A DNA stretch of 37,547 nucleotides, taken from contig SXYR01000066.1 of NCBI GenBank assembly GCA_005788265.1, positions 1 through 37,547 on the forward strand, given 5' to 3'. This stretch comes from Bacteroidota bacterium. GTDB lineage: Bacteria; Bacteroidota; Bacteroidia; Chitinophagales; Chitinophagaceae. Numbering within the stretch: position 1 is the first letter of the stretch; every line of letters starts with the position of its first letter. Shown here one piece after another: positions 4,962 through 28,725 of the stretch. A model generated the notes under the pieces. That model saw nothing but the letters and a program-made list of their open reading frames with translations. It had not been told where the DNA came from and made no database searches. The position numbers and the translations under genes are program-made.

Positions 4962-4985
4962 AAAAAAAGCCGGAATTACCCGGCT
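4962..4985 (-). terminator. intrinsic terminator downstream of pnp
   Basis: Minus strand AGCCGG-GTAATT-CCGGCT followed by a run of T (plus-strand taaaaaaagccggaattacccggct). It lies between the pnp stop (4992) and the prmA ATG (4961). Confidence 0.8.
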
Positions 4986-4991
4986 GATTCT

Positions 4992-7148
4992 TTATTGTGC
5001 AGAAGATTGATCGTCCTCTGGTTTTTTAAATTCAGGTTTTGGAATCAATGCCTTTCTGCTCAATTTGAATTTACCTGTTTTGTGGTCAATTCCAATCAAT
5101 TTGACTTTAACAACATCACCTTCATTCAAAATACCATCGAGGTTTTCCAAACGCTTCCAACTTACTTCGCTGATATGCAATAATCCTTGCTTGCCCGGCA
5201 TGAATTCAACAAATGCACCATATGGCATGATGGATTTTACGGTTGATTCGTATTCTTCTCCAACTTCAGGGATAGCCACAATGCCTTTGATCCATGCAAC
5301 TGCTTTATCAAGTCCTTCTTTCGCTGGACTGAAAACGCTCACTTCACCGTATTTGCCAACTTCTTCAATGTTTACTGTAGTTCCAGTTTCACGTTGAATT
5401 TCTTGGATAATTTTTCCTTGGGGCCCGATCACTGCACCAATGAACTCTTTATCAATGATCAGCTTCTCCATTCTTGGCGCATGTGGCTTCACTTCTTCTC
5501 TTGGTGTCTCAATGCACTGATACATTTCTTGGAGGATATGCAATCTGCCTTTTCTGGCTTGCTCCAATGCTTCACGCATGGTTTCCATACTGAGTCCATC
5601 AATCTTGATATCCATCTGAATTCCGCAGATGCCATCCCGTGTACCGGTTACTTTGAAGTCCATATCACCCAAATGATCTTCATCACCTAGGATATCTGTT
5701 AAAATAGAATACTTGCCATCTGATGGACGTGTAATGAGTCCCATTGCAACACCACTTACGTGTTTGGGGACAGGTACCCCTGCATCCATCAATGCGAGGG
5801 ATCCAGCGCAAACAGTTGCCATGGATGAGGAACCATTGGATTCCAGAATATCAGATACAATTCTCACAGTGTATGCATATTCATTTCCTGGCATCATTTG
5901 TTTCAATGAACGCAAAGCGAGGTTTCCATGTCCTACCTCTCTTCTACCAGGGCCTCTCATCGGTTTAACTTCACCTGTAGAAAAGGCAGGGAAATTATAA
6001 TGAAGGATGAATTTGCTGTAATCTGATTTGGCTGCACTTTCAATCAATAACTCATCGAGTGGTGTACCGAAAGTAACCGTTGTGAGTGATTGGGTTTCAC
6101 CTCTTGTAAACAAGGCAGATCCGTGTGGAGCAGGAAGCACATCGACTTCCATATTCAGAGGTCTAACTTGATCGAGTGATCTTCCGTCGAGACGGATTTT
6201 GTCATCCAAAATCATATTCCTTACCACGTCCCATTTCAGATCCTCGAAATATTTTTTGGCTAATTTCTTTTGTACATCGGTTGCTTCTGCACCAAGTGAT
6301 TCAATCACTTCTTTTTTCAATTCATCGTATGCCTTAGAACGATCTGCTTTGTTGGTGCCGCTTTTTGAAATGGCATATACTCTTTCAGTTGCGAGTGCAT
6401 TCACTTTTTGTTGGATGGCATCGTCTGTCAATGGTTTTGTATAATCTCTCTTGCCCTGAACACCAACTTTTTCACGGAGTTGTTCCTGTGCAGCAATTTG
6501 GGCTCTGATGGCATCATGGGCCACTTCCAAAGCTTTGATGAAATCAGCTTCAGAACACTCTTTCGATTCACCTTCGACCATCATCAGGTTCTTATGTGTT
6601 GCACCAATCATGAAATCCATGTCAGCACTTGCCAATTCAGTTCTGGTTGGATTTACAATAAAATTTCCATTTACCCTTGCAACACGTACCTCTGAAATGA
6701 TTTCCTTGATGGGAATATCTGATACTGCCAATGCAGCAGAAGCAGCTAGACAGGCCAGCGCATCTGGCATGATCTCTGGATCGCTGGAAACAAGCGTTAT
6801 CAGTACCTGAACATCGCACAAGTAATCTTCAGGAAACAAAGGACGAAGTGCACGATCTATCAAACGACTGGTCAAAATTTCATAGTCGTTCAATCTTGCC
6901 TCACGTTTGAAAAACGAACCCGGAATTCTTCCAGCAGACGCAAACTTCTCCTGATAATCTACCGAAAGAGGAAAGAAATCCTGTCCCTCTTTTGGTTCTT
7001 TGTTCGCGCAAACAGTTGCAAGTAAAATACAGTTTCCCTGACGGACTGTTACAGCGCCATCAGCTTGACGCGCGAGGCGTCCGGTTTCTATGGTTACAAT
7101 TCGACCATTACCAAGGTCGAAACTTGATTGAAAAGGTTGTGATAACAT
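4992..7148 (-). CDS. pnp: polyribonucleotide nucleotidyltransferase (PNPase)
   Basis: Two RNase PH-like repeats (AGRIPGSFFKREARLNDYEILTSRLIDRALRPLFP; FNFPAFSTGEVKPMRGPGRREVGHGNLA-type region), KH (IGAVIGPQGKIIQEIQRETGTTVNIEE) and S1 (GEEYESTVKSIMPYGAFVEFMPGKQGLLHISEVSW). The ATG at 7148 is preferred over the TTG at 7172. Confidence 0.98.
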   Translation of the reverse strand: MLSQPFQSSFDLGNGRIVTIETGRLARQADGAVTVRQGNCILLATVCANKEPKEGQDFFPLSVDYQEKFASAGRIPGSFFKREARLNDYEILTSRLIDRALRPLFPEDYLCDVQVLITLVSSDPEIMPDALACLAASAALAVSDIPIKEIISEVRVARVNGNFIVNPTRTELASADMDFMIGATHKNLMMVEGESKECSEADFIKALEVAHDAIRAQIAAQEQLREKVGVQGKRDYTKPLTDDAIQQKVNALATERVYAISKSGTNKADRSKAYDELKKEVIESLGAEATDVQKKLAKKYFEDLKWDVVRNMILDDKIRLDGRSLDQVRPLNMEVDVLPAPHGSALFTRGETQSLTTVTFGTPLDELLIESAAKSDYSKFILHYNFPAFSTGEVKPMRGPGRREVGHGNLALRSLKQMMPGNEYAYTVRIVSDILESNGSSSMATVCAGSLALMDAGVPVPKHVSGVAMGLITRPSDGKYSILTDILGDEDHLGDMDFKVTGTRDGICGIQMDIKIDGLSMETMREALEQARKGRLHILQEMYQCIETPREEVKPHAPRMEKLIIDKEFIGAVIGPQGKIIQEIQRETGTTVNIEEVGKYGEVSVFSPAKEGLDKAVAWIKGIVAIPEVGEEYESTVKSIMPYGAFVEFMPGKQGLLHISEVSWKRLENLDGILNEGDVVKVKLIGIDHKTGKFKLSRKALIPKPEFKKPEDDQSSAQ

Positions 7149-7178
7149 GATATGATTTTTGGTGTTGCCCAAAAAGGA

Positions 7179-7205
7179 CTATTCCCAACATGCAGTTGGG
7201 AATAG
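7179..7205 (-). promoter_or_regulatory. perfect stem-loop in the rpsO-pnp intergenic region / pnp leader
   Basis: CTATTCCCAAC-ATGCA-GTTGGGAATAG: 11-bp perfect stem, 5-nt loop, between the rpsO stop (7223) and the pnp start. Confidence 0.85.
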
Positions 7206-7222: not shown

Positions 7223-7495
7223 TTATTTTCTTAAACCGAGTTTCTCAATGAGAGCACGGTAGCCTTGAAGGTTGTGCTTGCTGAGGTAAATAAGCAATCT
7301 TTTGCGTTGACCTACCTTTCTCATCAAACCGCGGTTGGAGGAGAAATCTTTCTTGTTAGATTGCAAATGATTGGAGATTTCGTTGATCTCTTCTGTTAGC
7401 AGAGCAATCTGTGCATCGATAGAACCAGTGTTCTTTGCATTGCCCCCAAATTCTGATACGATGGAGGACTTTTTTTCTTTTGTTACGCTTGACAT
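7223..7495 (-). CDS. rpsO: 30S ribosomal protein S15
   Basis: 90 aa, S15 signature: NTGSIDAQIALLTEEINEISNHLQSNKKDFSSNRGLMRKVGQRKRLLIYLSKHN...YRALIEKLGLRK. Confidence 0.98.
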   Translation of the reverse strand: MSSVTKEKKSSIVSEFGGNAKNTGSIDAQIALLTEEINEISNHLQSNKKDFSSNRGLMRKVGQRKRLLIYLSKHNLQGYRALIEKLGLRK

Positions 7496-7545
7496 CTCAA
7501 TAATTTTTTTAATTCATCTCAATTTATACATCTCGAAATTGGACG

Positions 7546-7575
7546 CAAAGGTAATGAAATAAAATAAATACCCAA
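7546..7575 (-). promoter_or_regulatory. Bacteroidota-type promoter for rpsO
   Basis: Minus strand TTG (7575-7573) - N19 - TACCTTTG (7553-7546), matching the TTG/TAnnTTTG (-33/-7) consensus, about 50 nt upstream of the rpsO ATG. Confidence 0.7.
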
Positions 7576-18072: not shown

Positions 18073-18100
18073 AAAATAATGCGCGCCCAAAGGGCGCGCA
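18071..18100 (-). terminator. intrinsic terminator of the sdhCAB operon
   Basis: Minus strand TGCGCGCCC-TTT-GGGCGCGCA followed by TTATTTTTT: 9-bp perfect GC-rich stem, 3-nt loop, 30 bp past the sdhB stop. Confidence 0.88.
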
Positions 18101-18130
18101 TCAAAAACATTTGATAGATGGTGCCTGCTA

Positions 18131-27069: not shown

Positions 27070-28725
27070 TTATTGTTTTACCGGTTTACCCAATACATAT
27101 TTGATGCCTCCTATAAAATTAAATCCATATGCAGTGTATTGGTTCCATCGCTGGTATTGGACATTCGCAATATTATTCAAATCAAGCCAAAATCCCCACT
27201 TATCATTCAAATTATATTTGAATGATAAGTTGATATCAGCGACAGTGCTTAGTTTGACGTTAGAAACTGAGTTAGTTGCATATGAACCAGTCCAAAAGCT
27301 GCTGTTGAACAGAAGAGTCAGCTTTTCAATTGGTTTCCAGGTTGTTTTTACCCCCCATTGAAATGGGAGCATGCCAAATGGTTTTTCATACATCACCTGT
27401 CGTTGAAAAGATGTCCATTTCAAATCTGATGAAAAAGTTAGTCTTTGATTGAGAAAATAAGTGAAGCTGGATTTTACATCAATGGTTCTAAGAGATGATT
27501 CAAAAATTGTCAAAAAATCTTTACCAATCAACCCATTGTTGATGAAAAGGGGGATGTTTTTATGTTGTGTTGCCCCGGTTTCAATATCAATAGAAAATCC
27601 ATTTTCGCTGTGCAGATCGAACCCGGCAAATAAATAATGTTGCTCATATACCGGAGATATCAAGTTGAGCACTGGGTGGACAAATGGATTTTGAAGTAAA
27701 ATTTTATAGGGTGAATTGATTTCATATATGGATTGAAATCCTCCTTTTAGGTGCCATTTCCCATCATTCAATATATGTTTCAAAAAGATATTTGGCATGA
27801 ATTTCAATTGCTTGTTAAAATAAGCAGGCAATGCGGTTAAATTAAAAACCCAATTTTGATGAATCATTTCAGCACTAACCGGTAGTTTTAGTAGAAAGAT
27901 ATCATCAACAAATGAACGCTGAACAGCATTCACGTGCAGCCAAGAAAATGAAGGAACTGATTTGAATGTGAACCCTTTTTTCCAATTAAAGTAAGTAGGC
28001 ATCTCTATCGAAGAACTGAGGGTATTGTACTTGCGATTGGTTGTGAGAAAATCCAATGCAAAAGTTGGATTGACATTGATTTTTCCCTCTTCACCAGCAA
28101 CATTATTAAGTGCTGCATTTACATTGAAATTGGTATACTTCTGTTTCAGTTCCTCTAACGGAACATTGACATAGATCGTCCGGTCATAGCCATAGTTCCT
28201 GTAATTAAAATTCTCTACCCTGGCTCCTAACTTGTACTGATAATTTTCGGAAATTCTTTTCTTATAAGATGCCCCAATGGTGCCTATGGCGTGTTGTTGA
28301 TAAGGCAACTTGCCTTTCATTGAAAAATAGTCAGCATTGATCTGCAGGAATTGATCAACATTGCTTGATGCGTAAGACAGCGAACCAAATGGTGATTTTA
28401 AATTACCATATCCTATTTGGGCAATAAATTGATTGCCGTCAATTTCCTTTGTTGGAGCAGCATAAGCCAGGGGCTTGATTGTAAATCCACTCATTGGTGT
28501 GGAAAATGATAGTTTAACAGGTTCGTATGAAAATTTATAACGTGTGGTATCGCGTAAAATTGCATCTGGACGAAATTCCAACTTGGGAGATTTAACAATG
28601 CTTGGCTTAAAACTAGAAGTAATATTGATTTCCTCTTTTTGCTGTTTATTGATTTGTGCATGTACATTTTCCAATGCCAATTGGATAAAGAGAATGATGA
28701 ATGTTATGTGTAAATGAAATTTCAC
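27070..28725 (-). CDS. outer-membrane beta-barrel protein (TonB-receptor-like barrel)
   Basis: 551 aa with signal peptide (LHITFIILFIQLALENVHAQ) and repeated amphipathic beta-strands. GTG start overlaps the upstream TGA stop (GTGA). Confidence 0.78.
   Translation of the reverse strand: MKFHLHITFIILFIQLALENVHAQINKQQKEEINITSSFKPSIVKSPKLEFRPDAILRDTTRYKFSYEPVKLSFSTPMSGFTIKPLAYAAPTKEIDGNQFIAQIGYGNLKSPFGSLSYASSNVDQFLQINADYFSMKGKLPYQQHAIGTIGASYKKRISENYQYKLGARVENFNYRNYGYDRTIYVNVPLEELKQKYTNFNVNAALNNVAGEEGKINVNPTFALDFLTTNRKYNTLSSSIEMPTYFNWKKGFTFKSVPSFSWLHVNAVQRSFVDDIFLLKLPVSAEMIHQNWVFNLTALPAYFNKQLKFMPNIFLKHILNDGKWHLKGGFQSIYEINSPYKILLQNPFVHPVLNLISPVYEQHYLFAGFDLHSENGFSIDIETGATQHKNIPLFINNGLIGKDFLTIFESSLRTIDVKSSFTYFLNQRLTFSSDLKWTSFQRQVMYEKPFGMLPFQWGVKTTWKPIEKLTLLFNSSFWTGSYATNSVSNVKLSTVADINLSFKYNLNDKWGFWLDLNNIANVQYQRWNQYTAYGFNFIGGIKYVLGKPVKQ
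27198..27230. repeat. perfect 15-bp inverted repeat (intragenic)
   Basis: ACTTATCATTCAAAT-TAT-ATTTGAATGATAAGT, inside the 3' part of the barrel CDS. Confidence 0.9.

Follow-up and report, generated by a model that had tools for sequence, protein, structure and literature searches.

A sequence-conserved hairpin between rpsO and pnp in Chitinophagaceae as a putative attenuator of polynucleotide phosphorylase expression

Introduction

In E. coli and Streptomyces, the rpsO gene is directly followed by an intrinsic terminator, formed by a perfect short stem and a U-tract and located upstream of pnp. Readthrough is known to occur at the E. coli terminator, and in both bacteria pnp promoters are present within the gap (PMC5872136). 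When the E. coli gap (246 nt) is folded, a 12-bp rpsO terminator appears right after the stop codon and is followed by a separate, long and interrupted hairpin, where the RNase III site (position 3311286) is located (PMC5371410). Another kind of cis-acting RNA of the rpsO operon is represented by the S15 leaders (e.g. Rfam RF00114), which act in the 5' UTR of rpsO via pseudoknots or three-way junctions (PMC10931766).

PNPase, the product of pnp, is a central RNA-decay enzyme, and post-transcriptional regulation is poorly known in the Bacteroidota, where the gaps that we examined lack an E. coli-type pnp leader. Here, we analyze a hairpin located between rpsO and pnp in a 37,547-nt contig of a Chitinophagaceae bacterium (hereafter, the window), a concrete, small and testable element for which the original prediction proposed either an RNase III/PNPase autoregulatory site or a partial terminator. 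It appears to be of a known kind, an rpsO-pnp intergenic terminator or attenuator, and resembles the E. coli and Streptomyces terminators in structure and position. In contrast to these, neither a recognizable pnp promoter nor a second RNase III hairpin was seen in the gap studied here, and the sequence of the stem is locked across the family. This evolutionary lock is the surprise of the locus; our literature search found no description of a locked rpsO-pnp hairpin.

Results and discussion

The rpsO-pnp hairpin of the window

Both genes are encoded on the minus strand, rpsO (ribosomal protein S15; Pfam PF00312, E 2.7e-29) at 7223..7495 and pnp (Pfam RNase_PH twice, PNPase, KH_1 and S1) at 4992..7148, with its ATG at 7148, leaving a gap of 74 nt as originally reported. 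The nearest named relatives are Chitinophagaceae and Bacteroidetes MAGs, with a best PNPase identity of 98%. The predicted stem-loop, CTATTCCCAAC-ATGCA-GTTGGGAATAG, is present at 7179-7205, its arms being 100% complementary over 11 bp around a 5-nt loop. In the transcript, 17 nt separate the rpsO stop codon from the hairpin, which is composed of the 5' arm CTATTCCCAAC (7195..7205, minus strand), containing the family-wide core TTCCCAAC, the loop TGCAT (7190..7194, minus), variable in the family, and the 3' arm GTTGGGAATAG (7179..7189, minus). The T run noted after the stem was also recovered: directly after the 3' arm there is an interrupted, terminator-like U-tract, TCCTTTTTGG (7169..7178, minus), with five U, the first of which lies 3 nt past the stem. 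The ATG of pnp is found 30 nt from the stem.

With 11 bp, a loop of 5 nt and a stability of -16.0 kcal/mol, the hairpin has the stable stem (at least 5-6 bp) and small loop that characterize intrinsic terminators, and a terminator scan of the window also listed it as terminator-like. A folding energy of -25.4 kcal/mol (z = -4.7) was predicted for the RNA of the gap, and such a stem appeared in none of the 3000 sequences obtained by dinucleotide shuffling of its 74 nt; shuffling the whole window gave a mean of 0.2 such stems against five observed. The U-tract is offset from the stem and many relatives have a stronger one; in the genus of the window it begins with UCC or UGC, which would weaken termination. 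Gap length and U-tract strength showed only a slight correlation. A second, weak hairpin was predicted in the MFE fold (TTTTTGG-GCAACA-CCAAAAA, 7 bp, 7156-7175, minus), pairing the U-tract with an A-rich stretch before the pnp start. The corresponding TTTTGG..CCAAAA is found in 23 of the 24 genus loci and was seen in this genus only; if formed, this second hairpin could make either the U-tract or the region of the pnp start inaccessible.

The hairpin shares with the RNase III/PNPase hairpin of the E. coli pnp leader its location between rpsO and pnp, upstream of the latter gene, which it plausibly affects. Nevertheless, homology to this E. coli hairpin was not supported. E. coli has the rpsO terminator and then a separate hairpin containing the RNase III site (PMC5872136, PMC5371410), and this second hairpin, 3' of the terminator, is far longer (PMC5872136). 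The 74-nt gap of the window contains a single 11-bp stem with its U-tract and no second long stem, so that the hairpin matches the first E. coli hairpin in place and shape, not the second. In addition, a stem of 11 bp would be a short substrate for RNase III. We therefore regard an E. coli-type processing hairpin as improbable at this locus. An autoregulatory role exerted by means other than RNase III is possible and is considered below.

Distribution and sequence conservation in the Chitinophagaceae

A similar hairpin was found 3' of rpsO in almost every relative examined, so absence from orthologous gaps does not count against the original prediction. Terminator-like hairpins are present in all 138 distinct Chitinophagaceae rpsO loci and in 54 of the 55 loci of other Bacteroidia; the rpsO-pnp gap itself was taken from 135 distinct Chitinophagaceae loci. 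In this family, TTCCCAAC and GTTGGGAA are nearly always kept while the loop and flanks differ: 109 distinct loops, 4-19 nt long, were counted in 119 loci. When the stems of 132 loci, a set deliberately enriched for genomes without the pattern, were classified, 87 were canonical, 31 related and 14 of other types, spread over the whole tree. The 14 replaced stems mostly retain an adjacent pnp, showing that the lock is not absolute.

The hairpin sequence is single copy in the genome of the window, and in each of the 28 genus genomes that contain the exact motif there is one copy, adjoining rpsO (a duplicated fragment of rpsO accounts for one extra copy). Among the genus genomes lacking the exact motif, those for which the locus was retrieved have near variants such as CCCAGC/GTTGGG. 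A genome-wide repeat or uptake-signal terminator is thus ruled out. A shorter pattern was found in 124 of 150 family genomes, representing 81 of 95 genera, but this tally includes some chance matches and the locus-anchored counts are therefore preferred. Outside the family, matches to the exact pattern were not at rpsO and were attributed to chance. One genome of the class sample (G076) has 68 copies of TCCCAAC-N-GTTGGGA as a dispersed palindromic repeat, and the stem of its own rpsO terminator differs.

An inverted repeat with conserved arms could also be a DNA-level element, that is, an operator, a recombination site or an uptake site. However, the spacing between the arms ranges from 4 to 19 nt, the U-tract and strand polarity are kept, and each genome has one copy, leaving this explanation very little probability.

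Terminators are normally free to vary in sequence provided that pairing holds, and other terminators of the family do so. When the rpsO stems of 76 loci were compared in pairs, the longest identical run averaged 8.3 nt and reached at least 6 nt in 89% of pairs, compared with 3.4 nt and 8% for the pnp terminators of the same loci. In 30 Chitinophagaceae genomes for each gene, the corresponding values were 3.3 nt and 6% for rpsT terminators and 3.2 nt and 5% for those of rplT. The pnp terminator of the window, AGCCGGGTAATTCCGGCT-TTTTTT (4968-4985, minus), belongs to the control group that turns over freely in the family. At 132 loci, the stem bases have a consensus frequency of 0.80-0.90, compared with 0.51 for the fourfold sites of rpsO and 0.89 for its second codon positions. 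Such conservation is unusual for a terminator.

The covariation check proposed with the original prediction gave a positive result for the outer pairs. The five outer pairs are altered on both sides in 17, 11, 2, 9 and 4 loci, therefore supporting pairing at the RNA level. In the core, CCCAAC/GTTGGG, we found mainly G-U wobbles on the 5' side and four compensated cells; the invariance of the core is partly by construction, because the loci for pair counts were picked by a core-shaped pattern (the 14 loci of other types were counted separately). Along the 3' arm, not one 3'-side wobble was present in 118 loci. A stronger constraint on the 3' arm than on the 5' arm was seen in the Chitinophagaceae but not in a second family (that of genome G079), and fewer 3' positions can wobble; this asymmetry was therefore not used as an argument.

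Part of this picture would be expected of an ordinary rpsO terminator whose stem evolves slowly since compensatory changes need two steps: the hairpin appears terminator-like, its outer pairs covary, and the stem has been replaced in some lineages. Nevertheless, within this family the terminators of rpsT, rplT and pnp change freely, and rpsO terminators not adjacent to pnp diverge as well, which makes slow evolution alone an unlikely explanation.

Other locked stems and the adjacency of pnp

In other Bacteroidia, a hairpin is found in the same place with a different stem. The stem AAAGGCAAT is present in ten flavobacterial-type families and others, and at the level of the class the rpsO terminator stem AAAGGCAAT/ATTGCCTTT was observed to be common to many families (six loci serving as examples). 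A third locked stem, AAGCCAT/AAGCCGT, characterizes the family of G079; along its loci (L326-L371) the stem reads AAGCCAT(C)/GATGGCTT and has diverged in most loci without a downstream pnp. The rpsT terminators of 21 genomes, mostly of the AAAGGCAAT type at rpsO, vary freely (mean run of 3.5 nt). Therefore, several groups have such a lock where rpsO meets pnp, and each of them uses its own key.

The family of G079 also links the lock to gene order. Where pnp follows rpsO, GCC[AG]T is kept in 38 of 39 loci, compared with two of the seven loci with no pnp within about 1.5 kb (Fisher 9e-5, uncorrected for kinship), and the mean shared run is 7.4 nt in adjacent and 3.9 nt in non-adjacent loci. The tree contains only about five independent changes of adjacency, which leaves a phylogenetic sign test without power; the direction of the association is consistent. 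In the Chitinophagaceae, both non-adjacent genomes have diverged stems. In this small sample, the pattern fits a constraint imposed by the expression of pnp rather than by the need to end the rpsO mRNA, and the preservation of the stem sequence mainly where pnp follows rpsO indirectly supports a link to pnp expression. A stem at one conserved locus, which apparently stays fixed mainly as long as pnp lies downstream, points to an unrecognized control of PNPase, and suggests that the hairpin may regulate the amount of this enzyme rather than merely end a message.

Promoters of the rpsO-pnp unit

The -7 box of Bacteroidota sigma-A promoters has the consensus TAnnTTTG (PMC6847099, PMC9723704). In the window, the sole strong promoter candidate for rpsO-pnp contains the -7 box TACCTTTG (7546..7553, minus), upstream of rpsO. 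Within 200 nt upstream of rpsO, TAnnTTTG is found in 88% of the family loci, usually at a distance of 40-70 nt from the start codon, versus 12% of mononucleotide shuffles, and it is near chance in the rpsO coding sequence. In the rpsO-pnp gaps, this sigma-A motif is rare (1.5% versus 10.5% in shuffled gaps). The abundance of the box upstream of rpsO and its rarity in the gap point to transcription across the hairpin as the probable source of pnp mRNA; the argument for an attenuator would be weakened by a promoter within rpsO or by one of another sigma class. An antisense RNA across the hairpin, as is E. coli SraG, was also considered and rejected, the opposite strand showing no enrichment in sigma-A boxes.

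A putative attenuator of pnp

We consider it probable that the hairpin is a leaky, terminator-type attenuator within the operon that controls pnp. Transcription would begin upstream of rpsO and, at the hairpin and its U-tract, most RNA polymerases would be expected to stop, leaving a stable end on the rpsO mRNA, while a fraction would read through to produce the pnp mRNA. The hairpin would in this way set the rpsO:pnp ratio, because no recognizable pnp promoter lies between the two genes. Of the two roles originally proposed, the partial terminator is thus the better supported, as the position, the U-tract and the lack of a recognizable promoter in the gap all fit it. We infer termination, readthrough and attenuation from the sequence and its comparison among relatives.

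The hairpin probably does more than a generic terminator would, because the sequence of the stem, and not only its pairing, is kept family-wide and mainly where pnp follows. This could reflect either a hairpin strength held in a narrow window for the needs of pnp or the recognition of the hairpin by a trans-acting factor. The second option is modestly favored, since wobbles that lower stability are tolerated while base identity is kept. From the evolutionary side, the lock would make the hairpin more interesting than first claimed, and the E. coli-type interpretation is partly supported.

Recognition would be central if the stem were a sequence-specific autoregulatory site, in which PNPase, S15 or another RNA-binding protein binds the stem or one of its strands and alters the readthrough, processing or stability of the pnp message, in convergence with the autocontrol of PNPase in E. 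coli. The core, nearly invariant over the sampled genera despite tolerated wobbles that reduce its strength, agrees with such a site, as does the association of the lock with pnp adjacency; moreover, three different locked stems in three groups are what would be expected if site and factor co-evolved. However, a perfect A-form helix provides proteins with few base-specific contacts, the hairpin has no S15-type three-way junction or pseudoknot, and it has no match in the 16S rRNA of the genomes checked. Therefore, we regard this explanation as possible but clearly less likely than the attenuator. It can be extended, equally tentatively, to the Bacteroidota as a whole: their PNPase could be controlled by a lineage-specific attenuator recognized by its sequence, in which TTCCCAAC/GTTGGGAA, AAAGGCAAT and AAGCCAT would each have a trans-acting factor as an evolutionary partner, the lock being released once pnp leaves rpsO. 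If true, this autoregulatory circuit would have arisen independently of the RNase III-based circuit of E. coli and would be convergent with it.

Searches for partners and other RNA elements

Several candidate partners of the attenuator were rejected. For an antiterminator in the rpsO 5' UTR, its coding sequence or the pnp leader, complementary 6-8-mers were not above shuffles. Mimicry of 16S rRNA was discarded: in the five genomes for which a 16S match was obtained, the 16S stretch contains neither arm, and the few arm matches of this search are located in the flanks of the fetched loci. The U-G/C-G motif of S15 is present at the loop end in many long-gap relatives but was dropped because the window does not have it. 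As for a second conserved element of the pnp leader in species with long gaps, their alignment gave no consensus beyond the hairpin.

Conserved RNAs 3' of ribosomal protein genes are known, as exemplified by L17DE. The window hairpin resembles such downstream elements in its position, but no Rfam family reaches its gathering score on it. Apart from a chance snoRNA, a permissive Rfam scan retrieved only a weak S15-leader match in the 5' region of rpsO. The S15-leader match (7436-7543, minus) is below threshold, with 17.4 bits against a gathering score of 39.5, and may represent a divergent autoregulatory leader. The hairpin is, like the S15 leaders, a cis RNA element of the rpsO operon, but differs from them in being simple and located 3' of the gene.

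Two further hairpins of the window were observed away from this locus. At 18077-18103 (minus), a strong terminator-like hairpin, TGATGCGCGCCC-TTT-GGGCGCGCATTA, is followed by T6, and an AT-rich perfect hairpin of 15 bp with a 3-nt loop (ACTTATCATTCAAAT) is found at 27198-27230.
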